Assembly: GCA_016182795.1 (NCBI GenBank)
Contig: JACPFW010000029.1
Coordinates: 1 to 64,000 of the forward strand
Direction: 5' to 3'
DNA: 64,000 bases
Source: Gemmatimonadota bacterium
GTDB lineage: Bacteria; Gemmatimonadota; Gemmatimonadetes; Gemmatimonadales; Gemmatimonadaceae
The notes under the pieces were generated by a model. The model was not told the DNA's origin. It saw only the letters and a list, made by a program, of their open reading frames with translations, and did no database searches. Shown piece by piece: positions 31,070 through 46,366 of the stretch (within the stretch, counting starts at the first letter, position 1; each line of letters starts with the position of its first letter). The translations under genes and the position numbers were made by a program.

Positions 31070-32344
31070 ATGAATACCCCCGCCGTACCAAGCATCGCCG
31101 CCCCGGAGACCGGGGTGCAGCGCACCGTCCTGCCCAACGGGCTGACCGTCCTCTCCGAGTTCTATCCGGGCGTGCGCTCGGTTGCGCTGGGGGCCTGGGT
31201 GCGGGCGGCGTCAGTGCACGAAGCGCGCGAGGTGATGGGGGTCTCGCACCTGCTCGAGCATTTGGTGTTCAAGGGGACCGAACGGCGGAGCGCGCACGCG
31301 CTGGCGCTGTCGCTCGAGTCACTGGGCGGTTCGCTCGACGCCTACACCTCGCGCGAACACACGTCGTTCCAGGCGCGGGTGCTCGACGAGCATCTCCCCG
31401 AGGCCGCCGACGTGATGTTTGACCTCATGTTCCGGCCGCTACTGCGCGCCGAGGACCTGAAGCTCGAGCGCAAGGTGGTACTCGAGGAGATCTCGATGGT
31501 GGAGGACACTCCGGACGACCTCGTGTTCGATTTGCACAACGAGGCGCTGTGGGGCGCGCATCCACTGGGGTATTCGATCCTCGGTACCCGCGACACGGTC
31601 GCGGCCATGAAGCTCGATGACCTGCGCGCGTTGCACGCGCGGGCGTATCATCCGCCGCACGTGGTGGTGTCGGCGGCGGGAAATGTGACCCACGAGCACC
31701 TGCTGGAGGTGCTGGCGGACGCGGGCTGGGCCGATCTGCCGCGCGGCGACGACACGCCGCTCGAAGAGGCGGCGGCGGCGGCGCAGGCACCTGGCGTGCG
31801 TCACGTACAGCGAGACGGCGCGCAGTGCCACGTGGTGCTCGGCTCGGCCACGGTGCCGCACCGCGATGCGCGCCGCTTCGCGCTAATGCTGGTGGACACG
31901 CTGCTCGGCGGCGGGATGAGTTCGCGGCTGTTTCAGAAGGTGCGTGAGGAGCTGGGGCTCGCGTACAGCGTCTACACGTTTCAGAGCTTCCACTCGCTCT
32001 CGGGCGCGCACGGGGTGTATCTCGGCACCGCCCCCGATACGCGCGCGGCCGCGCTGGCGACGGTACAGGCCGAGCTGCGACGGCTGGCCGACGAAGGCAT
32101 CCCCGAGAAGGAGCTTGCCCAGGGGCGGCAGCAGCTGAAGGGGCAGATCACCCTTGGGCTGGAGAGCCCATCGGCGAGAATGTACCGGCTGGCCTCGTTG
32201 GAGCTGTATCGCGAGCCGTTCCGCCCGCTGGACGAGGTGCTGCGCAGCGTCGATGCCATCGACGGAGCGGCGGCACGCGCGGCATGCGCCGAGTTTTTTG
32301 GCCCAGACCGGCAGACGGTGGTGAGTCTGGGGCCGACCGCCTAG
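31070..32344 (+). CDS. M16 family zinc peptidase (processing-peptidase-like)
   Basis: 424 residues from the ATG at 31070; a TTG three codons upstream is possible. The inverted zinc motif HLLEHLVFKGTERR with a downstream Glu (DLHNEALWGAHPLGYSILGT) marks an active M16B peptidase related to mitochondrial processing peptidase beta and to Bacillus MlpA/YmxG. LLGGGMSSRLFQKVREELGL is the conserved C-terminal segment. pnp followed by an M16 gene is a frequent arrangement. A TTGACG / TTCTTT pair (31033-31062) ends 7 bases before the ATG. Its stop shares CTAG with the stop of the convergent tetR. Confidence 0.88.
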   Translation: MNTPAVPSIAAPETGVQRTVLPNGLTVLSEFYPGVRSVALGAWVRAASVHEAREVMGVSHLLEHLVFKGTERRSAHALALSLESLGGSLDAYTSREHTSFQARVLDEHLPEAADVMFDLMFRPLLRAEDLKLERKVVLEEISMVEDTPDDLVFDLHNEALWGAHPLGYSILGTRDTVAAMKLDDLRALHARAYHPPHVVVSAAGNVTHEHLLEVLADAGWADLPRGDDTPLEEAAAAAQAPGVRHVQRDGAQCHVVLGSATVPHRDARRFALMLVDTLLGGGMSSRLFQKVREELGLAYSVYTFQSFHSLSGAHGVYLGTAPDTRAAALATVQAELRRLADEGIPEKELAQGRQQLKGQITLGLESPSARMYRLASLELYREPFRPLDEVLRSVDAIDGAAARAACAEFFGPDRQTVVSLGPTA

Positions 32345-32958
32345 ACGGTGGTCGACGCCGGCCGGACGTTCGTCATCAGTCCGACCGCGGCCGCCAGATG
32401 GTCGTCGACGTCGAAGCGCTCGGCATCGATCATCGACTGCACGGCACAGCCTTTGATGAGGCTGACGGCCAAGCCGGCCAGGCCCTCGGGCGTGACGTCG
32501 GCGAAGCGGTCGGGCTCGGCCCGCAGCACTTCCGCGGCAAGCGGTCGGAACGACGCGCGGTATCGAGCGAACTCCGTCTGCAGCTTCTCGCGAATCGCCG
32601 CGTCGCGCACGCCGGCCATCCAGTAATCGAACGTGAGGCGAATGCGCAGCGGCTCGCTGGTGAGTCGGCTCATTTCGCGGCGCAGCACGGCGATGAGGCG
32701 CTCGGTGGGGGAGGGGAGCGCGGCCACGGCCGGATCGACGAGCAGCACCGTGGTGGTGGCGAGCACGTGGTCGAGGAGGGCGAGCAACAACTGGCGCCGA
32801 GTCTCGAAGTGGAAGATCACGAGACCGGGACTCACGTTTGCCGCCGCCGCGACGCGCAGGATCGTGGTTTCCCACAGCCCGTGTTCAGCGGCCACATCGT
32901 ACGTCGCCGCGAGGATCTGCTCCCGCCGCTCTGGCTCCGGCACTCTCTTGCCCGGCAT
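32341..32958 (-). CDS. TetR family transcriptional regulator
   Basis: 205 residues from the ATG at 32958, preceded by GGAGGGGG. The N-terminal HTH is PERREQILAATYDVAAEHGL then TTILRVAAAANVSPGLVIFHF. The C-terminal ligand domain (about residues 75-200) includes LTFDYWMAGVRDAAIREKLQ and TPEGLAGLAVSLIKGCAVQS, resembling BetI-type members in length and layout; the ligand is unknown. It is divergent from the Ehr-like operon, with a palindromic operator candidate in between, and likely controls that operon and itself. The much longer open frame reading upstream is a GC artefact. Confidence 0.88.
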   Translation of the reverse strand: MPGKRVPEPERREQILAATYDVAAEHGLWETTILRVAAAANVSPGLVIFHFETRRQLLLALLDHVLATTTVLLVDPAVAALPSPTERLIAVLRREMSRLTSEPLRIRLTFDYWMAGVRDAAIREKLQTEFARYRASFRPLAAEVLRAEPDRFADVTPEGLAGLAVSLIKGCAVQSMIDAERFDVDDHLAAAVGLMTNVRPASTTV

Positions 32959-33069
32959 CCGACCCCCTCCGGTTCGAGTTCCGCGTCCGACGCTCTGTGC
33001 CGCCTGCCGTCCGCACCACGGCAGCACGCGGACCGGCGCCGAGCATCGCGTTGACTGAGCTTCAGACAT

Positions 33070-33099
33070 AGCATAACGTTGTATTGAACGGAAGTTCAA
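33070..33099 (-). promoter_or_regulatory. Putative tetR promoter
   Basis: On the minus strand TTGAAC (33099-33094), an 18-base spacer, and TATGCT (33075-33070). The -35 lies inside the palindrome at 33081-33102, which would allow autorepression. Confidence 0.55.
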
Positions 33100-33102
33100 T
33101 AC
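33081..33102 (+). promoter_or_regulatory. Palindromic operator candidate for the TetR regulator
   Basis: A perfect 9-bp inverted repeat GTATTGAAC-GGAA-GTTCAATAC in the 291-base divergent gap between tetR and the Ehr-like operon. Its size, symmetry and AT content in a GC-rich region fit a TetR dimer site. The remaining gap (33103-33249) shows nothing I can name; the operon promoter probably overlaps or follows the palindrome. Confidence 0.75.
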
Positions 33103-33249: not shown

Positions 33250-35226
33250 GTGTGGAATGAGCGACCGGTCCGGCGCGTGAACACCGGGTGGCTGGTGCTC
33301 GTGGCAGTGTGTTGCCTGCTCGGCGGCATCGCCGCGGCGCGCGCGGCGACGCGCGCGTGGCTTGCGCTCACGCTGACCGGAGTCGCTGCGGGGCTGGCGG
33401 CGGCGGCGCGAGTCCTGATCGGCGCTGGCGCGTGGGAGTGGACCAGCGCCATGCGAGTGGGCGGCGAGACGCTGCATCTGCGACTCGATTCCATTAGCGC
33501 AATGTTTCTGGCGCTCTTGTGCGTGATCGCTGGCGCCGGAGCGGTCTACTCGAGTGCGTACTGGACCGATGCGATGCACCCCCGGTCGGCCGGTGCAGGA
33601 CGGCGCTGGTGGAACGTGCTGGTGCTCAGCATTGTCGTGGTGCTGCTCGCTTCGAACGGAGTTCATTTTCTGCTCGGGTGGGAGGCGTTCACGATCAGCG
33701 CGTACTTCCTGATCACGCTCGACCGCGACAACCCCGACGTGCGCCGCGCCGGATGGCTCTACCTCGCGGTGTCGCATGTGGCGGTCCTGCTGCTGTTCAC
33801 GTTCTTCGCGCTCCTCGCGGTCCGCACCGGCACGTGGGACCTCGGACCGATGCAGGAGCGCGCGGAACTTGCGCCGCTCTTCTGGCTGATGCTGGTCGGA
33901 TTCGGCATCAAGGCGGGGGTGTTTCCGCTGCACGTCTGGCTGCCCTCGGCGCACGCGAACGCGCCGAGCCACGTGTCGGCGATGCTGTCGGGCGTGGCGC
34001 TCAAGATCGGCGTCTACGGACTGGTGCGGTTTGCCGGGTGGCTGCCGACACCGCCGGAGGCCGGCTGGGTCGTGGCGACGCTGGGCGTGACAAGCGCGGT
34101 GCTGGGTGTGGCGTTTGCGCTCGGGCAGCACGACATCAAGCGCCTGCTGGCGTACCACAGCGTGGAGAACGTGGGGATCATCCTGATCGGACTGGGCTTC
34201 GGGATGGTGGCGACCGCGCAGGGATATCCGGCGTGGGGACGGCTGGCGCTGATCGGTGGTCTGCTGCACGTCTGGAATCACGGATTGTTCAAGGGCCTGC
34301 TGTTTCTCGGGGCTGGATCGGTGCTGCACGCGACCGGAACGCGCGAGATGAGCCGCCTGGGCGGACTGTGGCGTCGCATGCCGTGGACCACGGCACTGTT
34401 CGCGCTCGGCGCCGTGGCCATCTGCGGGCTGCCGCCGCTGAACGGCTTCGTGAGCGAGTGGCTGGTGTTCCTCGGACTGTTCGGGGCGGTGCTGTCACGC
34501 GGTTCTTCGGTGTGGATGGCCATACCGGCGGCGATTCTTCTGGCGCTCACGGGGGCGCTGGCGCTCGCCTGCTTCGTCAAGGTGTGCGGCGTCGTCTTTC
34601 TCGGGGCGCCCCGTTCGGAGACGGCGGCACGGGCGCACGAGAGCGGGCTGGCCATGCGCCTCCCGATGCTCGGGCTCGCCGGAGGCTGCGTGGCCATCGG
34701 CGTGGCGCCGCTGCTTGTCTGGCCGGCGCTCTCGCGCGCCGTCGGCACGTGGCACGGCGGATGGATGGACGCTGCGGAACCGGCGCCGCTGATGATGCTT
34801 GGCGCGGTGCAGACGGGGGTGCTGGTGATCGGCGGCGCGGTTGCGTGGATGCTGTGGCGCCGCGTGCGTGCCGTCGGGTGCGTGACGGCGCCGACATGGG
34901 ACTGCGGCTACGCGCTGCCGACGGCGCGCATGCAGTACACGGCGGGCTCGTTTGCCGGTATCGTCACCGAGTGGTTCGCGTTCATCTTGCGCCCGGTGCT
35001 GCATATGGAACGCCCGGAGGGCCTCGCGCCCCAGTCGGCGAGTCATTGGCAGCATACGCCGGAGACGGTGCTGGAACGGGCGGTCGAACCGCTCGGCGCG
35101 CTCGTGCTGCAGGGCGCGGTGGCGGCGCGGCGTCTCCAGCACGGCCGAGTGCAGGCGTATCTGGTGTACCTGCTGATCGGTGTCGCGCTGCTCGCGGCCG
35201 TGGTGCTGAGCGGAGTGTCGCCATGA
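33250..35226 (+). CDS. hyfB: Ehr/Hyf complex antiporter-like subunit, HyfB type, copy 1
   Basis: 658 residues from a GTG at 33250; a GTG at 33277 is equally possible and neither has a clear Shine-Dalgarno. About 16 hydrophobic segments. NuoL/HyfB family proton-channel motifs: FLLGWEAFTISAYFLITLD (the conserved membrane Glu), FGIKAGVFPLHVWLPSAHAN (key Lys and His), LGQHDIKRLLAYHSVENVGI (discontinuous helix) and HVWNHGLFKGLLFLGAGSV. The C-terminus continues with the HyfB-specific extension (WDCGYALPTARMQYTAGSF). It is the first gene of the operon and closely similar to the gene at 35947. Confidence 0.88.
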   Translation: MWNERPVRRVNTGWLVLVAVCCLLGGIAAARAATRAWLALTLTGVAAGLAAAARVLIGAGAWEWTSAMRVGGETLHLRLDSISAMFLALLCVIAGAGAVYSSAYWTDAMHPRSAGAGRRWWNVLVLSIVVVLLASNGVHFLLGWEAFTISAYFLITLDRDNPDVRRAGWLYLAVSHVAVLLLFTFFALLAVRTGTWDLGPMQERAELAPLFWLMLVGFGIKAGVFPLHVWLPSAHANAPSHVSAMLSGVALKIGVYGLVRFAGWLPTPPEAGWVVATLGVTSAVLGVAFALGQHDIKRLLAYHSVENVGIILIGLGFGMVATAQGYPAWGRLALIGGLLHVWNHGLFKGLLFLGAGSVLHATGTREMSRLGGLWRRMPWTTALFALGAVAICGLPPLNGFVSEWLVFLGLFGAVLSRGSSVWMAIPAAILLALTGALALACFVKVCGVVFLGAPRSETAARAHESGLAMRLPMLGLAGGCVAIGVAPLLVWPALSRAVGTWHGGWMDAAEPAPLMMLGAVQTGVLVIGGAVAWMLWRRVRAVGCVTAPTWDCGYALPTARMQYTAGSFAGIVTEWFAFILRPVLHMERPEGLAPQSASHWQHTPETVLERAVEPLGALVLQGAVAARRLQHGRVQAYLVYLLIGVALLAAVVLSGVSP

Positions 35227-35242: not shown

Positions 35243-35950
35243 ATGTTCCTGAATCTCATCCAGATTGCCGAGTCGTTCGGCATATCGGAGGGGGTCGTCG
35301 AGGGGTGGATCCGCGACGAGGGGCTGCCACATACCCGCGATCGAGGGCGACTGTTGTTCGATCGCGCGCAGGTGGCCCACTGGGCGGCGCTGCGTGGACT
35401 GTCGTCGCAGGCGGGCTTCCTCGCGCCCGAGCATTCCGTCTTTGCGACGGGCATCCGGCTCGAACCGCTGCTGCGCGCGGGCGGCATCCATCGCGGCGTC
35501 GCGCCGGAGGATGTGGGGGTGGTGTTCGACCGCGTGGTGTCGGCGCTGCCGCGCACGACGCCGGCGGTGCGACAGCTGCTGGCGCAGCGCTTGCGTGCGC
35601 CGGGCGGCGTGACACCGGCACCGGTGGGTGGCGGGTTTGCGGTGCCGCACCCGAGCGCGCGCGTCGCGCTGGGGCGCGACGCGGGCACGATTGCGCTGGT
35701 CTTCCTGCGCGACGGCATGCTGCTTCCTGAGGGCGCGGCCGATGGCGTGCCAGTGACGCGCCTGTTCTTCTTCGTGGCACCGTCGCCCCGCGCGCACCTC
35801 GACCTGCTCGGGCGGCTGAGCCGGCTGTTGAGCCGGGGACCGCTGCGCGACGCCTTGCACGCGGGGGCCACGGACGACGAGATCTTCCGTGCCGTGGCGG
35901 CGTTCGACGAGGAATTGGCGGCGCCCGGCGTGAGGAGCGGCCCATCGTGA
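35243..35950 (+). CDS. DNA-binding HTH / PTS EIIA (PtsN-like) fusion protein
   Basis: 235 residues. The N-terminal 55 residues are an excisionase/MerR-type winged helix: LIQIAESFGISEGVVEGWIR then GRLLFDRAQVAHW. From about residue 70 to 220 the protein is an EIIA-type-2 PTS domain, with the phosphorylatable His in GGFAVPHPSARVALG (His136) and VTRLFFFVAPSPRAHLDLLG as the conserved core. It lies between two HyfB-type genes, 16 bases after the first and overlapping the second by 4 bases. It probably senses PTS(Ntr) phosphorylation state and either regulates transcription or docks on the complex; this is inference. Confidence 0.85.
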   Translation: MFLNLIQIAESFGISEGVVEGWIRDEGLPHTRDRGRLLFDRAQVAHWAALRGLSSQAGFLAPEHSVFATGIRLEPLLRAGGIHRGVAPEDVGVVFDRVVSALPRTTPAVRQLLAQRLRAPGGVTPAPVGGGFAVPHPSARVALGRDAGTIALVFLRDGMLLPEGAADGVPVTRLFFFVAPSPRAHLDLLGRLSRLLSRGPLRDALHAGATDDEIFRAVAAFDEELAAPGVRSGPS

Positions 35951-37896
35951 TCGCCGGACCGCTGCTCACGCTGTCGTTCAGCGCGCTGGTGCTGGCCGCG
36001 CTTGCGGGTCGCCGGTGGCCACGCACCTGGCTTGCGCTCACCGTGGCCGGATCGGGTGTGGCACTGGCCGCAGCGCTGCTCGTGCTGTTCGGCACGACGG
36101 ACTGGGAGTGGCGTGGCACGGTCGCCTTTGGCGGTGAGTTGCCACATCTGCGGCTCGACGGCCTGAGCGCAATTTTCCTGGCGCTGGTCGGCGTCCTGGG
36201 CGGCGCCGGGGCGGTGTACGCCCACGAATACTGGTCCGATGCGTCGCATCCGACCTCGGCGCCGCGCGGTCGCGCGTGGTGGAGCGTGCTGGTGCTGAGC
36301 ATGATGCTCGTGCTGACGATCGCCAACGGACTGCACTTCCTGCTGGCCTGGGAGTCGTTCGCGATCGCCGCGTTCTTCCTGATCACGCTCGACAGCGGCG
36401 CGCGCGCGGTGCGATCGGCGGGCTGGCTGTACCTGGCGGCGTCGCATGCGGGAACGCTGGCGCTGTTCGCCTTCTTCGCGCTGCTCGCCGAGCGGACGGG
36501 GAGCTGGGACTTGGGCCCGATGCGCGCGCAGGCCGGGCTGCAGCCGCTGTTCTGGCTGGCGATGCTGGGATTCGGCGTGAAGGCCGGCCTGTTCCCGTTG
36601 CACGTCTGGCTGCCGTCGGCCCACGCCAACGCCCCCACTCACGTGTCGGCCATCATGTCGGGGGCCGCGATCAAGATGGGCGTGTACGGCCTCGTGCGCT
36701 TCAGCGGCTGGCTGCCGGTGCCGGTGTCGGCGGCATGGGTGCTGGTGATCGTCGGCTCGCTGAGCGCGCTGCTCGGCATCGCGTTCGCGTTCGCGCAGGG
36801 CGACCTCAAACGCTTGCTCGCCTACTGTTCGGTGGAGAACGTGGGGATCATTCTCGTGGGCGTGGGCGGCGCCCTGCTCGCCGTCGCCGATGGCGACTCG
36901 CCCTGGGGACGGCTGGTGCTGGCCGGCGCGCTGTTTCACGTCTGGAATCACGGTTTGTTCAAGGGCCTGCTGTTCTTTGGGGCCGGCTCGGTGCTGCACG
37001 CCACGGGAACGCGGGAGATGAGCCGACTCGGCGGCCTCTGGCGGCGGCTCCCATGGACAGCGGCGTCGTTTGCGATCGGGTGCCTTGCCGTGGCCGGCTT
37101 GCCGCCGCTCAATGGATTCGTGAGCGAGTGGCTGGTGTATCTCGGGCTGTTCGATGCGGTCACGAGCCACGGCGCGACCGCGTGGGCCGCGATCTTCGCG
37201 GCGCTGATGCTCGGGAGCGCGGGGGCGCTTGCGCTGGCGAGCTTCGTGAAAGCGGGATCGATGGTGTTCCTCGGCGCGCCCCGCGGTCGGGCGGCGGCGC
37301 AGGCGCACGAGGCCGGCCGGGCGATGCGCGGGGCCATGCTGCTGCTCGCCGCGCTGTGCGTGGGGCTCGGCCTTGCGCCGACGCTCGTTTGGCGGGCGCT
37401 CGCACGCGGGGTTGCCGCGTGGCATCCGGCGTGGACCGTGGCGCCGGTGCCCGGCGCGCTGCAGGCGATCGGCGGTACACAGCTCGCGCTCGCCATGCTG
37501 CTCCCCGCGGTGGGCTGGTTCGCGTGGCGCAAGATGCACGGACGCACGGCGCGACGGGCGTTGACGTGGGACTGCGGATTCGCCGCGCCCACCGCGCGCA
37601 TGCAGTACTCGAGCGCATCGTTCGCCGGCATCGCGAGTGGGTGGTTCCGATGGATCCTGCGGCCGCGCCTGACTCTGCGCCGGCCGCGCGGCCTGATGCC
37701 GACCCGCGCCTTCCGTCTGGAGCGCATTCCCGAAACGATGCTGGACCTCGTGATTGTTCCTATCGGCGGGCTGATCATGCAGACGGCGAGCGGGGCGCGT
37801 CGGCTGCAGCATGGCAGCCTGCAGGCCTACATCCTGTACGTCGTGGCGGGGCTCGTCGCGTTGGGCGCGATGGTCCTCGGGGCTGGGATCCGATGA
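35947..37896 (+). CDS. hyfB: Ehr/Hyf complex antiporter-like subunit, HyfB type, copy 2
   Basis: 649 residues from a GTG overlapping the previous stop. It parallels copy 1 segment by segment: FLLAWESFAIAAFFLITLD, FGVKAGLFPLHVWLPSAHAN, FAQGDLKRLLAYCSVENVGI, HVWNHGLFKGLLFFGAGSV, and the C-terminal WDCGFAAPTARMQYSSASF. Nothing suggests loss of function: Glu, Lys and His of the channel are kept. With the HyfF homologue at 39436 the complex would have three large antiporter-like subunits, as complex I has. Confidence 0.88.
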   Translation: MIAGPLLTLSFSALVLAALAGRRWPRTWLALTVAGSGVALAAALLVLFGTTDWEWRGTVAFGGELPHLRLDGLSAIFLALVGVLGGAGAVYAHEYWSDASHPTSAPRGRAWWSVLVLSMMLVLTIANGLHFLLAWESFAIAAFFLITLDSGARAVRSAGWLYLAASHAGTLALFAFFALLAERTGSWDLGPMRAQAGLQPLFWLAMLGFGVKAGLFPLHVWLPSAHANAPTHVSAIMSGAAIKMGVYGLVRFSGWLPVPVSAAWVLVIVGSLSALLGIAFAFAQGDLKRLLAYCSVENVGIILVGVGGALLAVADGDSPWGRLVLAGALFHVWNHGLFKGLLFFGAGSVLHATGTREMSRLGGLWRRLPWTAASFAIGCLAVAGLPPLNGFVSEWLVYLGLFDAVTSHGATAWAAIFAALMLGSAGALALASFVKAGSMVFLGAPRGRAAAQAHEAGRAMRGAMLLLAALCVGLGLAPTLVWRALARGVAAWHPAWTVAPVPGALQAIGGTQLALAMLLPAVGWFAWRKMHGRTARRALTWDCGFAAPTARMQYSSASFAGIASGWFRWILRPRLTLRRPRGLMPTRAFRLERIPETMLDLVIVPIGGLIMQTASGARRLQHGSLQAYILYVVAGLVALGAMVLGAGIR

Positions 37897-38801
37897 TGAT
37901 CGTGCTCTCGTTCGTTGCGCGCCTGGCATGGTGGCTGCTGCTGGCGCCGCTGCTCCCGGGCATCATCAACAAGGTGAAGGCGTGGGTGGCCGGACGTCGC
38001 GGACCGCCGGTGCTGCAGCTCTACTACGACCTGGCGCGCCTGTGGCGGAAGCAGGTCGTGATGAGCACGCTCGCGTCGCCGGCGTTCATCGTTGGTCCGG
38101 CGGTGGCGTGGGCCGCGGTGCTCGGCGCGACACTGCTCGTGCCGCTGGGGCCGGCGGCCGGCGCGACGCTAAGCTTCCGCGGCGACGTGGTGCTGATGCT
38201 CTACCTGCTCGCGCTCGCGCGGTTTGCGACGACGTGGGCGGCCATGGAAACGGGGTCGGCGTTCGAGGGGATGGGGGCGGCGCGCGAGGTGACCTACGCG
38301 GTGCTCGCCGAGGCGGCGATGATCGCCGCCATGCTCACGCTGGCCGTGCAGACGGGAAGCGTCTCGCTGGCGACCATGCTGGCGCCGTCGGTCGGCACGA
38401 GCGCGGTGCTGCTCGCGGCCGGACTGTTCACGGTGCTGCTGGTGGAGAACTGCCGCGTGCCGTTCGACGACCCGGCGACGCACCTCGAACTGACGATGAT
38501 CCACGAGGTGATGGTGCTCGACCACAGCGGCCCGCCGTTCGCGGCCATTCTGCACGGCGCCTCAATGAAGCTGCTCCTGTTTGCCGTGCTCGTGACGCAG
38601 TCGGTGCTGCCCATGGGCACCTATTCCCGAACGATGGCGTCGATCGTGCTGCTCGTCGGCGTGCTCATCGTGACGGTGGGTGTCGGGATCGTGGAGTCGT
38701 TCATGGCGCGCTTCGCGTTCCGGCGCGTGCCGCTGCTGCTGACGACGTCGGTGCTGCTCTGCGTCTTCGCCCTGCTCGTGGCGTGGCAGGGGGCGGCCTG
38801 A
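37893..38801 (+). CDS. hyfC: Ehr/Hyf complex membrane subunit, NuoH/HyfC type
   Basis: 302 residues, about eight transmembrane segments. NuoH-family features: PLLPGIINKVKAWVAGRRGP near the N-terminus, ETGSAFEGMGAAREVTYAVL (the conserved acidic loop), VENCRVPFDDPATHLELTMI and HEVMVLDHSGP. The subunit anchors the peripheral arm and lies near the quinone/charge-transfer entry in complex I. The start is the first of two adjacent ATGs overlapping the previous stop. Confidence 0.92.
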   Translation: MMIVLSFVARLAWWLLLAPLLPGIINKVKAWVAGRRGPPVLQLYYDLARLWRKQVVMSTLASPAFIVGPAVAWAAVLGATLLVPLGPAAGATLSFRGDVVLMLYLLALARFATTWAAMETGSAFEGMGAAREVTYAVLAEAAMIAAMLTLAVQTGSVSLATMLAPSVGTSAVLLAAGLFTVLLVENCRVPFDDPATHLELTMIHEVMVLDHSGPPFAAILHGASMKLLLFAVLVTQSVLPMGTYSRTMASIVLLVGVLIVTVGVGIVESFMARFAFRRVPLLLTTSVLLCVFALLVAWQGAA

Positions 38802-39439
38802 TGCGCGACCTGAATCTGCTGATCGGGCTGGCGATGGGGCTGAACCTCGTGGCGCTGGGGAGCAGCCGGTTGCCGTCGATCATCCGAGCGACGGCGTTGC
38901 AGGGCGTGCTGCTCGGCATCATGCCCCTGCTGCTCGAGCACGATTTCGGCTGGCAGGTGGTGGCGGTGGCGGTGGCGACGGCGATCGGCAAGGGCGTCGT
39001 GATCCCGGGGTTGCTGCAGCGCGCGATGCGCGCGGCGCACATTGAGCGCGAAGTCGAACCCTTCATCGGCTTTGTGCCGTCGCTCCTGCTGGGCGCGTTC
39101 GGCACGATCGCCGCGCTCGCGGTGGCGCGTTCGCTGCCGTTGCTCCCGGAGCACGCCAAGTCGCTGCTGGTGCCGGGGGCGCTGGCGTCGATGCTGACCG
39201 GATTCGTACTGCTGATCGGCCGCGTGAAGGCCATCTCGCAGGTGTGCGGCTACCTGATCTTCGAAAACGGCATCTACCTGTTCGGCCTTCTGCTCATCGG
39301 CTCGACGCCGCTGCTGGTGGAGGCCGGCGTTCTGCTGGACCTGACCGTGGGCATCTTCGTTATCGGTATCATCGTGGACCGCATTCAGCGCGCCTTCGAC
39401 TCGCTGGACACCCGCAAGCTGACGGTGCTGCGCGAATGA
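38801..39439 (+). CDS. hyfE: Ehr/Hyf complex membrane subunit, HyfE type
   Basis: 212 residues with about six or seven hydrophobic segments. The N-terminal half is HyfE-specific; the C-terminal half resembles NuoK/MrpC: SQVCGYLIFENGIYLFGLLL contains the conserved membrane Glu, followed by LLVEAGVLLDLTVGIFVIGI. It overlaps neighbours by 1 and 4 bases, so the operon is tightly coupled. Confidence 0.88.
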   Translation: MRDLNLLIGLAMGLNLVALGSSRLPSIIRATALQGVLLGIMPLLLEHDFGWQVVAVAVATAIGKGVVIPGLLQRAMRAAHIEREVEPFIGFVPSLLLGAFGTIAALAVARSLPLLPEHAKSLLVPGALASMLTGFVLLIGRVKAISQVCGYLIFENGIYLFGLLLIGSTPLLVEAGVLLDLTVGIFVIGIIVDRIQRAFDSLDTRKLTVLRE

Positions 39440-40878
39440 GAGAGCTACTCCTGGTTTTCGTGCCGCTGGCCGGCGCGCTCGTCGCGTGGTTCTGGCCGAG
39501 CGACCGCGGGAGACCGTGGTTGCTGCCGGCGGTGGGCGCCGTGCACCTGGTCCTGTCGGCATGGCTGCTCGTGCAGCCGCCGACGGTCGCGCCGAACGCG
39601 TGGATGGGCTTCGACGCCGTGGCGCGGGCCGTGCTGCCGGTGGTCTCGCTGCTGTTCTTCGCGTGCTCCATCTACGCGGTGACCTATCTGGGGCTGCGCG
39701 CCGAGCGGGAGAATCGCGTCTTCGTGTCGGTGCTGATGCTCGTGATCGGCCTGCTGAGCGCGGGGCACCAGGCCCGACACCTGGGCGTGCTGTGGATCGC
39801 CACGGAGGGAGTGACGCTGGCCGCGGTGCCGCTGCTGCATTTCAACGGCACGCCGCGCGCGTTCGAAGCCACCTGGAAGTACCTGCTGGTGGGTGGCACG
39901 GGGATCGCGCTGTCGCTGCTCGGCTCGTTCTGCCTGGGTTACGCGTCGATGCACGGGGGCGGGAGCGGCGACCTGACCTTTGTGGCGCTCGCGGCGCAGG
40001 GCGCGGCGCTGTCGCGCCCGTGGGTGCTGATCGCTTGGGTGCTGCTGCTGGCCGGCTACGGCACGAAGATGGGGTTGGCACCCATGCATACGTGGAAGCC
40101 CGACGCGTACGGCGAGGCGCCGGGGATCGTCGGCGCCCTCCTCGCCGGGGGCGTCACCACGGTGGCGTTCACCGCGCTCCTGCGCGTGCGCGCGGTGGTC
40201 GGCGCGTCGGGGGCGGGCGCGATCGCGGATCGCACGCTGCTGGCCATCGGCCTGTTCTCCATGCTGGTCGCGGCGCTGTTCCTGCTGGGCACGCGGAACT
40301 ACAAGCGCATGCTCGCCTACTCGAGCGTCGAGCACATGGGGATCCTGAGCATCGGCGCGTCGCTCGGCCCGGCGGGCGTGTTCGCGGCGCTGTTCCACGT
40401 TTGGAGCAACGGACTCACCAAGGGGGCGCTGTTCCTGAGTTCGGCCAACATCCGACGCGCCGCCGACTCGGCGTCGATCGACGACGTGCGCGGCATGTCG
40501 GTGCTCACCCCGCGTTCGGCGATGATCTTTGTGGCCGGACTCTTCGCGGTCACGGCGTCGCCGCCGTTCGGTCCGTTCTTCAGCGAACTGCTCGTGCTGC
40601 GCGCCGCGCTCGGTGCAGGGCATTACGCGGCCGTCGCGGTCTTTCTGGTGTGCCTGCTGTTCGCGTTCTTCGGGCTCAGCCGTGTGGTGTTCGCCGTCGT
40701 GGACGGCCGGCCGCGGCCGGCGACGGTGGCGGCCAGTCGCCGGTTCGTCGAGACGGCGGGGTCGTTGGTGCCGCCCGCCCTGCTGCTCGGCCTGTCGCTG
40801 TGGCTCGGGCTCTTCACGCCGGCCGTGCTGCGGGAGTCGTGGACCGCGGCGGTCGCCCAACTGTTTCCGACGCCATGA
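39436..40878 (+). CDS. hyfF: Ehr/Hyf complex antiporter-like subunit, HyfF type
   Basis: 480 residues, NuoN/HyfF-like. About 13-14 hydrophobic segments; IATEGVTLAAVPLLHFNGTP (conserved Glu), GYGTKMGLAPMHTWKPDAYG (Lys/His), RNYKRMLAYSSVEHMGILSI and HVWSNGLTKGALFLSSANIR. This is the third proton-channel-like subunit in the operon and the closest to the peripheral arm in Hyf/FHL structures. Confidence 0.9.
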   Translation: MRELLLVFVPLAGALVAWFWPSDRGRPWLLPAVGAVHLVLSAWLLVQPPTVAPNAWMGFDAVARAVLPVVSLLFFACSIYAVTYLGLRAERENRVFVSVLMLVIGLLSAGHQARHLGVLWIATEGVTLAAVPLLHFNGTPRAFEATWKYLLVGGTGIALSLLGSFCLGYASMHGGGSGDLTFVALAAQGAALSRPWVLIAWVLLLAGYGTKMGLAPMHTWKPDAYGEAPGIVGALLAGGVTTVAFTALLRVRAVVGASGAGAIADRTLLAIGLFSMLVAALFLLGTRNYKRMLAYSSVEHMGILSIGASLGPAGVFAALFHVWSNGLTKGALFLSSANIRRAADSASIDDVRGMSVLTPRSAMIFVAGLFAVTASPPFGPFFSELLVLRAALGAGHYAAVAVFLVCLLFAFFGLSRVVFAVVDGRPRPATVAASRRFVETAGSLVPPALLLGLSLWLGLFTPAVLRESWTAAVAQLFPTP

Positions 40879-42362
40879 GTGGAGACACCCTCTTCGCGCT
40901 GCTGCCCAACGCCGGTTCGCTGCCGTGGGGCGACGTGCCCGAGTGGCCGGCGGCCGAGTTCGTGCGGCGCACCGCGGCCGAACTCGATCGCGGCGCTCGC
41001 CTGTGCAGCTGGTTTGGCGTGCCCGAGGACTCGGGACTGGGAGTCCGGCTCGTGGCGATCGTCGCGTTCGACGCCGACAACACGCTGGCGGTGGGGCGCA
41101 GTCTGCCGGTGAGCGGTTCGGTGCCGTCGCTCACCGTCTTGCACCCGCAGGCGCATCTGTTCGAGCGGGAAGTGTGGGAACAGCACCAGCTCACGCCCGA
41201 GGGACATCCGTGGCTCAAGCCCGTGCGGGCGTCAGCGGGAGAGGCGCCGGCCAACGGCGAGTTCTTCCGGGTGGACGGTGGCGAGGTCCACGAAGTGGCG
41301 GTCGGGCCCGTGCATGCGGGGATCATCGAGCCGGGGCACTTCCGGTTCCAATGCGCGGGCGAGGAGGTGATCCACCTCGAGATCGCGCTCGGCTATCAGC
41401 ACCGCGGCATCGAGCGCGCGCTGGCCGGGGGGCCGCACCGGCTCACCGAGCGGCAGATTGAGACGATCGCCGGCGACACGACGGTGGCGCATGCCACCGC
41501 CTATGCGACCGTGCTGGAGTCGCTCGCGCAGGGCGAGGCGCCGCTGCGCGCGCAGTGGCTGCGCGCAATCGGACTGGAACTTGAGCGGCTCGCGAACCAC
41601 ACGGGCGACCTGGGCGCACTGGCCGGCGACGCCGCCTTCCTGCCGACGTCGGCAGCGTGCGGGAAACTGCGCGGCGACTTCCTGAACCTGACGGCGGCGC
41701 TCTGCGGCAACCGGTTCGGACGCGGGCTTGTGCGCCCGTTCGCGATTGGGCCGGATGTTGATGACGCGTTGGTCGCGCGCATGATGGGCAACCTGACGCG
41801 CGCGCTCGATGACGTGGAGCAGGCCATCGCATGGCTTTGGGACGCGGCGTTGGTGCGCGGCCGCTTTGAAAACGTGGGGACGGTGCACCGCGCGCAGGCG
41901 GAGGAGATCGGGATGGTCGGACCCGCGGCGCGGGCGTGCGGTCTGGTGCGCGACGTCCGCTACGATCACCCGGCGGGATGGCACCGCTTCGCGCAGGCAC
42001 CGGTTGCCGTCTGGCCGGGCGGCGACGTGTTCGCGCGGGCGCGCGTGCGCTCACTCGAGATCCAGCGGTCCGGCGATTTCCTGCGCGAGCAGTTGGGAGT
42101 GCCGCCCGAACGGGAGGCGACCGGCGGTGCGCCGCCGCTCGAGGGGGATACGCTCGCGGTGGCGCTGGTGGAGGGATGGCGTGGCGAGGTGTGCCACGTG
42201 GCGATCACGAACGCATCGGGCGCATTCCGCCGCTACAAGGTCACGGATCCATCGTTCCACAATTGGCCGGGGCTCGCGCTGGCGCTGCGTGGCAACGCGA
42301 TCTCCGACTTTCCGATCTGCAACAAGAGCTTCAGTCTGTCGTACTGCGGTTTCGATCTCTAA
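40875..42362 (+). CDS. hyfG: Ehr complex large subunit, HyfG/NuoCD-like, without NiFe ligands
   Basis: 495 residues. The N-terminal 150 residues are a NuoC-like domain (LFEREVWEQHQLTPEGHPWL), the rest NuoD/large-subunit-like (GYQHRGIERALAG, then LELERLANHTGDLGALAGD). In [NiFe] hydrogenases the first Ni-binding CxxC follows GxxHRGIE by some 20-30 residues; here that stretch reads IETIAGDTTVAH with no Cys. The C-terminal CxxC is also missing: the end is DFPICNKSFSLSYCGFDL. So no Ni-Fe site can form. This matches Ehr-type complexes described as related to, but distinct from, group 4 hydrogenases. The electron donor and acceptor are unknown. Confidence 0.85.
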   Translation: MSGDTLFALLPNAGSLPWGDVPEWPAAEFVRRTAAELDRGARLCSWFGVPEDSGLGVRLVAIVAFDADNTLAVGRSLPVSGSVPSLTVLHPQAHLFEREVWEQHQLTPEGHPWLKPVRASAGEAPANGEFFRVDGGEVHEVAVGPVHAGIIEPGHFRFQCAGEEVIHLEIALGYQHRGIERALAGGPHRLTERQIETIAGDTTVAHATAYATVLESLAQGEAPLRAQWLRAIGLELERLANHTGDLGALAGDAAFLPTSAACGKLRGDFLNLTAALCGNRFGRGLVRPFAIGPDVDDALVARMMGNLTRALDDVEQAIAWLWDAALVRGRFENVGTVHRAQAEEIGMVGPAARACGLVRDVRYDHPAGWHRFAQAPVAVWPGGDVFARARVRSLEIQRSGDFLREQLGVPPEREATGGAPPLEGDTLAVALVEGWRGEVCHVAITNASGAFRRYKVTDPSFHNWPGLALALRGNAISDFPICNKSFSLSYCGFDL

Positions 42363-42376
42363 TCCGGACGCTCCCC

Positions 42377-43201
42377 ATGTTCGTCGTCGACACCCTGTTG
42401 CACCGATTGAAGCGCGGCTGCGAGACGATGGCGTATCCCGACGGCCCGGCGCCGGCGCTCCCCGAGCGGCATGGCGGCGCATTGCGTGTCGACGGCTCCA
42501 AGTGCGACGACGGCTGTGACGCCTGCGTGTCCGTCTGTCCGACAACCGCCATCTCGCGCGCCAACGGGCAGCCGGCGGTGCTGGATCTGGGCCGTTGCGT
42601 GTTCTGCGCGGCGTGCGTGCAGGCCTGTCCGACGGGGGCGATCACGCAGACCGGAGATCATCGCATGGCCGTGCGCCGGCGCGAGGACCTCGTGGTCGGC
42701 GGCCGTGGCGCCGAGGAGGTGCGGTTGGCAGCCGAACTCGACGCGACGCTCATGCGGCTCTTTGGCCGTTCCCTGCGGCTGCGCCAGGTGAGCGCCGGCG
42801 GCTGCAACGCGTGCGAAGCCGACACCAACGTGCTCGGTACGATCGGGTGGGACCTTGGGCGATTCGGCATCCAGTTCGTGGCCTCGCCGCGGCACGCCGA
42901 CGGCTTGCTGATTACCGGTCCCGTCTCGCGCAACATGCAGCGCGCGCTCCGCAAGACGTGGGATGCCGTGCCGGAGCCGCGCATCGTCATCGCCGTCGGC
43001 GCGTGCGCCATCTCGGGCGGGCTGTTCGCCGGCCATCCGGAGGTGCATACGGGCGTGGAGTCCGAGCTCCCGGTCGACCTGTACATTCCGGGCTGTCCGC
43101 CGCACCCGCTGACGATCCTCGATGGGCTGCTGCGGATGCTTGGCCGCCTGGACGAGCGCCGTTTCCCTCCGCGTAGACGCGGCGCGGCGGCCACCGACTG
43201 A
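42377..43201 (+). CDS. Ehr complex Fe-S subunit: ferredoxin domain fused to HyfI/NuoB-like small subunit
   Basis: 274 residues. N-terminal part (about residues 40-95) has two 4Fe-4S sites, CDDGCDACVSVCP and CVFCAACVQACP, equivalent to HyfH/NuoI (note the first has three residues between its first two Cys). The C-terminal part (about 120-255) is NuoB-like: SAGGCNACEADTNVLGTIGW, VAVGACAISGG (here IAVGACAISGG) and IPGCPPHPLTILDGLLRML, supplying the ligands for the cluster nearest the active site. In Hyf/Hyc these are two separate genes. It is the last gene of the operon, 14 bases after hyfG. Confidence 0.9.
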   Translation: MFVVDTLLHRLKRGCETMAYPDGPAPALPERHGGALRVDGSKCDDGCDACVSVCPTTAISRANGQPAVLDLGRCVFCAACVQACPTGAITQTGDHRMAVRRREDLVVGGRGAEEVRLAAELDATLMRLFGRSLRLRQVSAGGCNACEADTNVLGTIGWDLGRFGIQFVASPRHADGLLITGPVSRNMQRALRKTWDAVPEPRIVIAVGACAISGGLFAGHPEVHTGVESELPVDLYIPGCPPHPLTILDGLLRMLGRLDERRFPPRRRGAAATD

Positions 43202-43424: not shown

Positions 43425-44585
43425 ATGATACTGGGCATACCGAAAGAAGTCCTGGAGAACGAGGACCGCGTCGCGGCTCTCCCTGACTCCGTACGCGAGT
43501 ACGTTGCCATGGGATTTGACGTCCTGGTTGAAACGTCGGCGGGCAAGGGCGCCCTCAAGAAGGACGAAGAGTACGTGGCGGCTGGCGCCAAGATCGTCAC
43601 CGATGCCAAGGCGCTCTTCGCCCAGTCGGACATCATCCTCAAGGTCAAGCAGCCGCATTTCAACTCGAAGGTTGGAATGCATGAAGCCGACATGCTGCGC
43701 GAGGGGTCGATTCTCGTCACCTTCCTGCATCCGGCGACGCCGGGCAACCACGACATGATCCGGAAGCTCCGCGACCGCAAGATCACGTCGTTCACGATGG
43801 ACAGCATCCCGCGCATCTCGCGCGCGCAGTCGATGGACGCGCTGACCTCGATGAGCACGGTCACGGGCTACAAGTCGGTGATCATGGCCGCCTACCGCTT
43901 CCCGCGCATTATCCCGATCCTCGGCACGGCGATCGGCACGGTGAAGGCGGCGAAGTTCCTCATCGTTGGCTCCGGAGTGGTGGGCCTGCAGGCGATCGCC
44001 ACGGCGAAGCGCCTGGGCGCGTCGATCAAGGTGTGGGACATCAGCGAGGCCGCGCGCAAGGGCGCCGACAGCCTCGGCGCGAAGATCGCGGGCTTTGACG
44101 TGCCGGCGGAGATCGCGCTCGGCGACGGCGGCTATGCCAAGGCGCTGCCGGAGGAGTGGCTGAAGAAGGAGCGCGCCGCGCTGACGCCGTTCGTCCAGGA
44201 AGCCGACGTGATCATCATGAGCGCGCTCGTGGCGGGCGAGGTGGCCCCGATCCTGATCACCGACGAGATGGTCGCCGGCATGAAGCCCGGCTCCGTGATC
44301 ATGGACGTCTCGGTGGACCAGGGCGGCAACTGCGCGCTGACGGTCCCCGGCCAGGACGTGGTGAAGCACGATGTCTTCATCAGCGGCCGCATGAACATCC
44401 CCGGCTCGGTGGCCGTGGACTCGGCGTGGTTCTACTCGATGAACATGGTCAACTTCGTGAAGAACCTCTTCCAGAAGGGGATCGGGAAGCCCGATTTCGA
44501 GGATGACATCGTCAAGGAGACGCTGGTCACGAACCAGGGCAAGATCCACCACCATGGCGCGCTCAAAGCCATGGGCGAGTTGTAA
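43425..44585 (+). CDS. pntAA: NAD(P) transhydrogenase subunit alpha, part 1 (domain I)
   Basis: 386 residues: the NAD(H)-binding domain I. IPKEVLENEDRVAALPDSVR, VKQPHFNSKVGMHE, RISRAQSMDALTSMSTVTGY and FLIVGSGVVGLQAIATAKRL are diagnostic; the last is the Rossmann loop. Related alanine dehydrogenases are excluded by the pntAB and pntB genes that follow. The enzyme drives NADPH formation with the proton gradient. Confidence 0.94.
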   Translation: MILGIPKEVLENEDRVAALPDSVREYVAMGFDVLVETSAGKGALKKDEEYVAAGAKIVTDAKALFAQSDIILKVKQPHFNSKVGMHEADMLREGSILVTFLHPATPGNHDMIRKLRDRKITSFTMDSIPRISRAQSMDALTSMSTVTGYKSVIMAAYRFPRIIPILGTAIGTVKAAKFLIVGSGVVGLQAIATAKRLGASIKVWDISEAARKGADSLGAKIAGFDVPAEIALGDGGYAKALPEEWLKKERAALTPFVQEADVIIMSALVAGEVAPILITDEMVAGMKPGSVIMDVSVDQGGNCALTVPGQDVVKHDVFISGRMNIPGSVAVDSAWFYSMNMVNFVKNLFQKGIGKPDFEDDIVKETLVTNQGKIHHHGALKAMGEL

Positions 44586-44591
44586 GACGCA

Positions 44592-44912
44592 ATGGTTGAT
44601 CTCCTGCTGTTGCTCGTCGTCTTCGGCTTCTCCTTTGGGGTCGGGCATATCCTGATCTCGCGGGTGCCGCAGATTCTGCACACGCCCCTGATGTCGATGA
44701 CCAATGCCATCTCGGGCGTGACGCTGCTGGGGGCGCTGCTGCTGTTTGCGGTGCCCACCGGTCCGTGGGAGAAGACGCTGGGCGCCATTGCGGTCGGCGC
44801 CGCGGCCTTCAACGTGATTGGCGGGTTTGCGATCACCGACCGGATGCTTCGGCTCTTCAAGTTCAAGACCCGGCATAAGGGCGGGGACGAAGCAGGGGAG
44901 GCAGCGCGCTGA
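44592..44912 (+). CDS. pntAB: NAD(P) transhydrogenase subunit alpha, part 2 (membrane)
   Basis: 106 residues, three transmembrane helices: GFSFGVGHILISRVPQILHT, PLMSMTNAISGVTLLGALLL and FNVIGGFAITDRMLRLFK. Together with PntB it forms the proton channel. It starts 6 bases after pntAA and shares TGATG with pntB. Confidence 0.94.
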   Translation: MVDLLLLLVVFGFSFGVGHILISRVPQILHTPLMSMTNAISGVTLLGALLLFAVPTGPWEKTLGAIAVGAAAFNVIGGFAITDRMLRLFKFKTRHKGGDEAGEAAR

Positions 44913-46366
44913 TGGATTCTGGGCTGCAGTTCCTCATCGACCTTGCGGTCATCCTGATCCTGTTTGCCGGGATCTGGCAGTTTCACACCACGCGGGGCGC
45001 CAAGTGGGGCAATCTCACGGGCGCCTTCGCGCTGGCCAGCGCCGTGGCGCTCGTCCTGTACCGGCATCCTGTCCTGGAGCCCGGCCTCGTGGTCGCGGCG
45101 ATCGTGGTCGGGGGCATCATTGGGGTGGCCATCGCCCTGCGGGCCAACATGATCCAGATCCCCGCCATCGTGGCCTTTCAGCACGGCTTCGGCGGCGTGG
45201 CGGTGTCCTTCGTTTCGTACGTTGAACTGGCGCGCGTCACCGAAACGCTTCCGCTGGCGGGACGCATCTCGGGCCTGCTCGGACTCGTGCTTGGCGCGGC
45301 GACGTTCAGCGGCAGCTTGATTGCCAGCGCCAAGCTGGCGAACCGCATCAAGCAGACGCCGGTGGTGCTGCCGAACCACAATCTCGTGCTGGGGTCGCTG
45401 GCGCTCGTCGCGCTGGTGCTGGTGGTGATCTCCGGCATCTCGGGGATCCTCCCGGTGCACGCGGCACTGATCGTGCTCAGCGCGGTGTCGGTGGTGCTGG
45501 GCGTGGTGTTCGCCATTCGCATCGGCGGCGCCGACATGCCGGTGCTGATCTCGTTCCTCAACGCCACCGCGGGCTTCGCGGCCGCGCTGTGCGGCATCGT
45601 CATCCAGAACCGCCTGCTCATCGCGTGCGGAGCGACGGTGGCGGCGTCGGGCTCCATTCTCACGCACATCATGTGCAAGGGGATGAACCGGAGCCTCCGG
45701 AACGTGTTCATCAGCGCGTCGACGAAGGCGGAGGCCGTGAAGGGCGCGGCGGCGCCGGCGTCGGCGCCGGCCGTCGCGTCGAAGTCGACGGAAACGCCGG
45801 CGTCCGCGCCGGCGACCGCCGCGGTTGCCCCGGCGCCGGCCAAGCCGGTTGGAGATCTGTATGCCGAGGCCGCCGAGGCGGCCAAGGCGGCGAAGACCGT
45901 GGTGATCATTCCGGGGTACGGGATGGCGCTGGCCCACGCGCAGTTCGAGGTGGTCGATCTGGCCAACCGGCTCCAGAAGCGGGGCGCGGACGTGAAGTTC
46001 GCGGTCCATCCGGTCGCGGGGCGCATGCCGGGCCACATGCACGTGATCTTGGCCGAGGCCGAAGTCGATCCCGACGTGCTGTTCGAGATGAACCAGGTCA
46101 ACGACCAGCTGAAGAACACGGACGTCGTGTTCGTGGTTGGGGCGAGCGACGTGGTGAACCCGTCGGCCATCTCGGTGAAGGGGACGCCGATCTCGGGGAT
46201 GCCCATTCTGCTGGCCCACGAGGCCAAGCGCGTGATCGTCTGCAATCTCGACGACAAGCCGGGCTACTCGGGCGTGGAGAACTCTCTGTACAAGGATCCC
46301 AAGGCGCTGCTGCTGCTGGGCGACGCCAAGGCGACGATCGCGGAGTTGATCCAGCGGCTGGCGTAA
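44912..46366 (+). CDS. pntB: NAD(P) transhydrogenase subunit beta, with an Ala/Pro linker
   Basis: 484 residues. N-terminal membrane domain with about eight or nine helices (AFQHGFGGVAVSFVSYVEL; NLVLGSLALVALVLVV), then a 40-residue Ala/Pro/Ser-rich linker (about residues 273-312), then the NADP-binding domain III: VVIIPGYGMALAHAQFEVVD, FAVHPVAGRMPGHMHVILAE, VGASDVVNPSAI and IVCNLDDKPGYSGVENSLYK. The linker is longer than in E. coli PntB and low in complexity. All catalytic motifs are intact. Confidence 0.94.
   Translation: MDSGLQFLIDLAVILILFAGIWQFHTTRGAKWGNLTGAFALASAVALVLYRHPVLEPGLVVAAIVVGGIIGVAIALRANMIQIPAIVAFQHGFGGVAVSFVSYVELARVTETLPLAGRISGLLGLVLGAATFSGSLIASAKLANRIKQTPVVLPNHNLVLGSLALVALVLVVISGISGILPVHAALIVLSAVSVVLGVVFAIRIGGADMPVLISFLNATAGFAAALCGIVIQNRLLIACGATVAASGSILTHIMCKGMNRSLRNVFISASTKAEAVKGAAAPASAPAVASKSTETPASAPATAAVAPAPAKPVGDLYAEAAEAAKAAKTVVIIPGYGMALAHAQFEVVDLANRLQKRGADVKFAVHPVAGRMPGHMHVILAEAEVDPDVLFEMNQVNDQLKNTDVVFVVGASDVVNPSAISVKGTPISGMPILLAHEAKRVIVCNLDDKPGYSGVENSLYKDPKALLLLGDAKATIAELIQRLA

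Follow-up and report, generated by a model that had tools for sequence, protein, structure and literature searches.

Ehr complexes, reportedly described by Coppi in 2005 and by Marreiros et al. in 2013, are said to occur in Nitrospira, Geobacter, and M. tuberculosis (Rv0082-Rv0087). These complexes are widespread and are placed between hydrogenases and complex I. Published studies describe them as relatives of group 4 hydrogenases that lack the CxxC motifs and whose function is unknown (PMC6349859, PMC10284858, PMC12342949, PMC7304191, PMC10432482), and no biochemical function has been demonstrated for any Ehr complex in the literature that we found. Among other described systems, E. coli FHL-1 and FHL-2 (Hyc/Hyf, group 4a) share with the operon described here a fused 30/49-kDa large subunit as well as HyfB-, HyfC-, HyfE-, and HyfF-like membrane genes, and complex I (NuoBCDHIKLN) shares homologous subunits and channel residues with it.

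Here we describe an operon in a stretch of 64,000 nucleotides (referred to as the window; all positions are window positions unless another contig is named) from a genome of the Gemmatimonadota (G000). The operon encodes a genuine Ehr complex, a kind that is already known; new here are an invariant proton relay without quinone ligands, transfer of the operon, a true hydrogenase residing in the same genome, and EIIA and SulP partners. We consider it likely, with a probability of roughly 70%, that Ehr, as a member of the complex I/group 4 hydrogenase superfamily, pumps ions by means of a redox reaction and has no part in H2 turnover.

Operon composition and annotation

A divergent TetR gene is followed by genes for NuoL1, EIIA-HTH, NuoL2, NuoH, a HyfE-like protein, NuoN, EhrL, and EhrS; adjacent genes from EIIA to EhrL overlap by 1 or 4 bp, and this Ehr gene order is conserved across dozens of loci. 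The membrane part comprises two NuoL/HyfB-like antiporter subunits, the first of which (EhrA-type; 33250-35226, + strand) matches Proton_antipo_M, with hydrogenase 4 subunit B as the closest model, and the second of which (35947-37896, +) is a paralogue with 59% identity to the first; it further includes a NuoH/HyfC-like subunit (EhrB; 37893-38801, +; NADHdh, PF00146), a HyfE-like subunit (EhrC; 38801-39439, +; sub-threshold match to NF008556, hydrogenase 4 membrane subunit), and a NuoN/HyfF-like antiporter subunit (EhrD; 39436-40878, +; PF00361). Conserved Glu and Lys channel residues are known from NuoL, NuoM, and NuoN, and each of the three antiporter-like subunits encoded here has kept Glu/Lys/Glu channel residues. 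Between the two NuoL-like genes lies a gene for a PTS EIIA (type 2) domain with an N-terminal HTH (35243-35950, +; PF00359 above cut-off, HTH_17 slightly below), a probable regulator. EhrL (40875-42362, +) is followed by EhrS (42377-43201, +; ATG start; Pfam Fer4 and Oxidored_q6), in which a NuoI-like ferredoxin with two [4Fe-4S] clusters is fused to a NuoB/HycG-like small subunit; EhrS matches HycG and MbhJ, its ferredoxin part matches NuoI-like domains, and the proximal-cluster cysteines are kept.

The operon resembles known Ehr systems in its EhrA/B/C/D-type membrane subunits, in an EhrL without CxxC pairs, and in its EhrS small subunit. Geobacter, too, appears to have two copies of EhrA, one of them named EhrA-1 (PMC7894505). 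By contrast, the fusion of EhrS to a ferredoxin domain, the upstream TetR gene and palindrome, and the horizontal acquisition of the operon set it apart from known Ehr, as may the EIIA-HTH gene between the two NuoL-like genes. Unlike E. coli FHL, the window operon contains neither a separate HycB/HyfA nor FdhF, and a second HyfB copy replaces HyfD; unlike complex I, it showed no NuoEFG (the NADH module) among its ORFs. A preliminary description of this DNA had credited the operon with the full membrane set of a Hyf/FHL-like complex; while HyfB-, HyfC-, HyfE-, and HyfF-like genes are indeed present, HyfBCDEF is incomplete, as there are two HyfB/NuoL-like genes and profile matches identified no HyfD-type gene in the membrane set. 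Its warning that automatic annotation would mislead holds, as the best NCBIfam scores, all below cut-off, favour 'hydrogenase 4' subunits for the antiporter-like genes and NuoD for the large subunit.

No gene for a donor module (i.e., FDH, NuoEF, or a separate ferredoxin) was found among the ORFs of the operon. This bears on the idea that Ehr forms the membrane part of a larger complex with formate dehydrogenase, in which formate would be oxidised and ions pumped; FDH-Ehr complexes have been proposed for Riflemargulisbacteria and Saganbacteria (PMC6349859), and the higher abundance of Geobacter Ehr subunits on formate (PMC7894505) is in line with this idea. However, no FDH gene was recognised in the conserved neighbours of related operons either (families were read by eye and are in part annotated), and the molybdopterin oxidoreductase of the genome adjoins a true hydrogenase (G000:C18) rather than Ehr; for the window operon we regard such a complex as rather unlikely.

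The large subunit EhrL and its pocket

The EhrL ORF is intact and encodes 495 amino acids that match Complex1_30kDa and Complex1_49kDa (Pfam), which identifies the protein as a fused large subunit with a NuoC-like and a NuoD/hydrogenase-like part. Neither an RxCxxC nor a DPCxxC motif was found in its sequence. In an alignment of EhrL with HycE, HyfG, and NuoCD of E. coli, MBH of P. furiosus, Nqo4 of T. thermophilus, and proteins from the genome itself, the Ni-Fe ligands C241, C244, C531, and C534 of HycE correspond to A199, T202, S489, and G492 of EhrL, and the C-terminus (...NKSFSLSYCGFDL) stops just beyond the position of the hydrogenase CxxC. None of 112 Ehr homologues has a Cys at any of the four ligand columns; the first column is occupied by A, S, V, or G, the second by T, S, A, V, or G, the third by S throughout (112/112), and the fourth by G or A (G492 in 111/112). 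An independent MAG of the same genus (G002), whose EhrL is 86% identical, shows the same residues at the four positions; as 112 sequences concur with this finding, sequencing error is ruled out as the cause of the Cys loss. EhrL is hence a group-4-like large subunit that has lost the four Ni-Fe cysteines. The earlier claims that both nickel-binding CxxC pairs are missing, that the protein cannot be a [NiFe] hydrogenase, and that the complex is of the Ehr type are borne out by the motif analysis, by the phylogeny, and by the description of Ehr in the literature.

In the phylogeny (IQ-TREE, PMSF, 53 sequences, with CxxC-less rows recognised by motif and a sample that did not include the published Geobacter and Nitrospira Ehr references or MBS/MBX), all CxxC-less large subunits formed one clade with support of 97/91, separate from NuoD, which has a branch length of 2.24, and from Hyc/Hyf/MBH. 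EhrL thus groups with CxxC-less sequences and not with NiFe hydrogenases or NuoD. The sister of all Ehr was a CxxC-bearing hydrogenase-like protein (L110, from genome G139 of the same phylum), a placement that is suggestive only because several joins involve long branches. L110 shares EPGHF, N241, and NKSF with Ehr; unlike Ehr, it keeps RICGVC and CYSC and therefore is probably a real hydrogenase. This protein provides a CxxC-bearing sister sequence for comparison with Ehr: the conserved residues specific to Ehr relative to L110 include D201, W435, K455, D458, S489, and G492, of which D201, S489, and G492 may mark changes that accompanied metal loss, and L110 is possibly a transitional form. 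With regard to structure, an AlphaFold model of EhrL based on close homologues alone was unusable at the active site (pLDDT 57.9), and a diverse alignment was used instead; the resulting model (pLDDT 88.8, pTM 0.91; uncertain in the loop at 145-153 and over the five C-terminal residues) gives a confident fold, which is closest to HycE among PDB entries (TM-score 0.89), followed by E. coli NuoCD. The archaeal sulfane sulfur reductase entry 6u8y_L (MBX/MBS) matched EhrL weakly (1.8e-13, rank 17).

The same genome also encodes NuoD of complex I (G000:C1). Another of its large subunits (L004, G000:C18:15826-16866) carries RICGIC and DPCFSC and hence represents a genuine FHL-like [NiFe] hydrogenase; the cluster in which its gene lies further encodes a molybdopterin oxidoreductase, an Fe-S protein (Fer4_22), and a protein of the flavin/NAD type. 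While hyp maturation genes had been expected to be absent or unrelated, HypD, the only one of them for which we searched, is present (G000:C46). Because the separate CxxC hydrogenase accounts for hypD, we rejected the lack of hyp genes as a criterion for Ehr; conversely, hyp genes in a genome cannot serve to call such loci hydrogenases. The presence of hypD, the fold closest to HycE, and the two CxxC pairs of the nearest outgroup could be read as signs that EhrL is a genuine hydrogenase whose metal ligands are unusual. We regard this as very improbable, given that all four ligands are lost in every Ehr homologue, with Ser fixed at the third position and Gly in all but one sequence at the fourth, that the intact hydrogenase accounts for the hyp genes, and that Ehr expression was not raised by H2 in Nitrospira moscoviensis (PMC12342949).

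The locus also defines which residues of the pocket are kept and which are replaced. A structural study of FHL (PMC9474812) lists the functional residues of HycE, and we mapped these onto EhrL. The proton donor Glu193 corresponds to E152, and His284, Arg395, Glu437, and Arg478 correspond to H242, R353, E395, and R436, each in 112/112 Ehr, so that the proton relay of E. coli FHL is retained. Among the canopy residues, Ser283 corresponds to N241 (109/112), while Asp529, termed strictly conserved across the superfamily (PMC9474812), is replaced by Asn or Ser in 110/112 Ehr, a difference from FHL that could mean different chemistry. Dozens of positions are invariant among the 112 sequences; between the window and G002, EhrL shows a dN of about 0.097, a dS of about 0.845, and a dN/dS of about 0.11, and the neighbouring subunits show likewise low ratios, which indicates purifying selection. 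As the relay residues are invariant and dN/dS is low, the pocket looks like a conserved, repurposed metal-free redox site under selection rather than a dead one. In a further difference from complex I, the quinone ligands H38 and Y87 of Nqo4 correspond to I151 and G200 in 112/112 Ehr, and a quinone is hence not indicated by homology; we tentatively give somewhat less than even odds that the acceptor is nevertheless a quinone, which would have to be bound otherwise than in complex I.

For a redox-driven ion pump, we infer the following donor, acceptor, ion, and direction of flow. A soluble donor, most likely ferredoxin, would give low-potential electrons to the two [4Fe-4S] clusters of the EhrS ferredoxin domain, from which they would go on to the EhrS proximal cluster and then to the metal-free EhrL pocket. 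There a small acceptor would be reduced, with protons supplied via the hydrogenase-type relay of E152, H242, R353, E395, and R436. A conformational and electrostatic change may then travel via the NuoH-like subunit to the three antiporter-like subunits, which would move H+ or Na+.

Horizontal acquisition of the operon

Ehr was found in 25 of 298 genomes of the window's phylum, and apart from the same-genus pair G000/G002 the other Ehr of the phylum show at most 57% identity; the closest relatives outside the genus are from Verrucomicrobiota MAGs (68-78% identity). Grouping of the window Ehr with the phylum's 15 main Ehr was rejected (AU p=4e-10), while a position as sister to, rather than within, the Verrucomicrobiota-type group was not (AU p 0.28); as nesting within that group is not required, we did not accept a transfer direction from the tree alone. 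The status of the window lineage as recipient instead follows from the insertion site, which is empty in sister genomes: five genomes of the same genus carry M16 peptidase, alanine dehydrogenase, and mreB with nothing in between, and in three further ones M16 adjoins alanine dehydrogenase. In G002, the TetR gene and Ehr operon are inserted between M16 and alanine dehydrogenase, and the window shows this insertion as well, except that pntA1A2B stands where G002 has alanine dehydrogenase. The whole operon together with the TetR gene was thus acquired horizontally; misassembly was rejected as the cause of the foreign operon, as the independent genome G002 carries the insertion at the same site. 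That the operon moves between lineages argues for a complex that works with widely shared partners.

Patchy presence and acquisition by transfer might also be expected of a decaying, non-functional remnant. We give this explanation next to no credence, as the ORFs are intact with tight overlaps, EhrL and its neighbours are under the selection described above, and dozens of positions are invariant across the family. The pntA1A2B transhydrogenase genes (43425-46366), which begin 223 bp downstream, were considered and rejected as part of the Ehr system, as they occupy the place that alanine dehydrogenase has in G002 and the sister genomes; their products are at most 41% identical to anything in the genus or in the sampled Ehr-bearing genomes.

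A few members of the Verrucomicrobiota-type group are labelled Kapabacteria, Planctomycetota, or Proteobacteria and may be mis-binned. Several Verrucomicrobiota loci (L015, L053, L056, L074, L008, L063) carry, in tandem with the first Ehr operon, another one that is divergent in sequence and of the IPDFPVVNKSF type, and on a Variovorax plasmid a second Ehr-like operon adjoins the first (L162, 15592-21419).

Regulators and partner genes

Comparison of loci adds EIIA, SulP, and TetR as conserved partners of Ehr. The divergent gene (32341-32976, - strand; Pfam TetR_N and TetR_C_6) encodes a TetR/BetI-like regulator that is 87% identical to its counterpart in G002, and related TetR genes adjoin native Ehr operons in three other genomes (G004, G131, G139). 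Between the TetR and NuoL1 genes lies a perfect 9-bp inverted repeat, GTATTGAAC-GGAA-GTTCAATAC (33081-33102), a candidate TetR operator; it is the sole TTGAAC-N4-GTTCAA within the 64 kb and is conserved in G002, while a scan for a sigma-70 promoter found none. An EIIA gene is present in most complete Ehr operons, with the active-site His136 in 74/74 aligned sequences, and a PTS enzyme I (PtsI) domain match occurs in the genome. The EIIA/HTH protein and the TetR repressor probably control expression or activity of the complex.

A SulP gene (DauA-like, with STAS) lies directly upstream of the Ehr operon in 16 of 58 scorable loci, and SulP genes are denser upstream of the operons (13 in 166 kb) than downstream of them (2 in 469 kb); in G004 and G014, which belong to the phylum of the window, a SulP gene in the opposite orientation adjoins the native Ehr. 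Together with the invariant EIIA His, these findings are consistent with a sub-family that is mainly an ion- or anion-homeostasis device, in which EIIA-regulated antiporter subunits are coupled to a SulP anion transporter (for dicarboxylate, sulfate, or bicarbonate) and the redox arm is a power supply or sensor. We consider this improbable, however, as the window operon and about three quarters of scorable loci have no adjacent SulP, as the SulP enrichment is partly shared ancestry because related genomes are not independent, and as redox chemistry is likely to be central to Ehr because EhrS keeps its cluster cysteines. A more far-reaching version of the redox-driven pump, which we hold to be equally improbable, is that the EIIA-bearing branch represents an energy converter of its own kind, under PTS control and associated with SulP, that might spread across phyla as a self-contained EIIA-regulated module and whose pocket (invariant D201, S489, G492, and K484, with the canopy Asp changed to N/S) might run a proton-coupled reduction foreign to known superfamily members.

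Two more EIIA genes are located on the contig of the Ehr operon (G000:C38:63439-63867 and 105331-105756). Finally, SulP/DauA-like genes with STAS were seen beside Ehr in two bacterial groups and in two orientations (L023, L027, L035-L039, L050, L064, L071, L079, L084, L135, L140).
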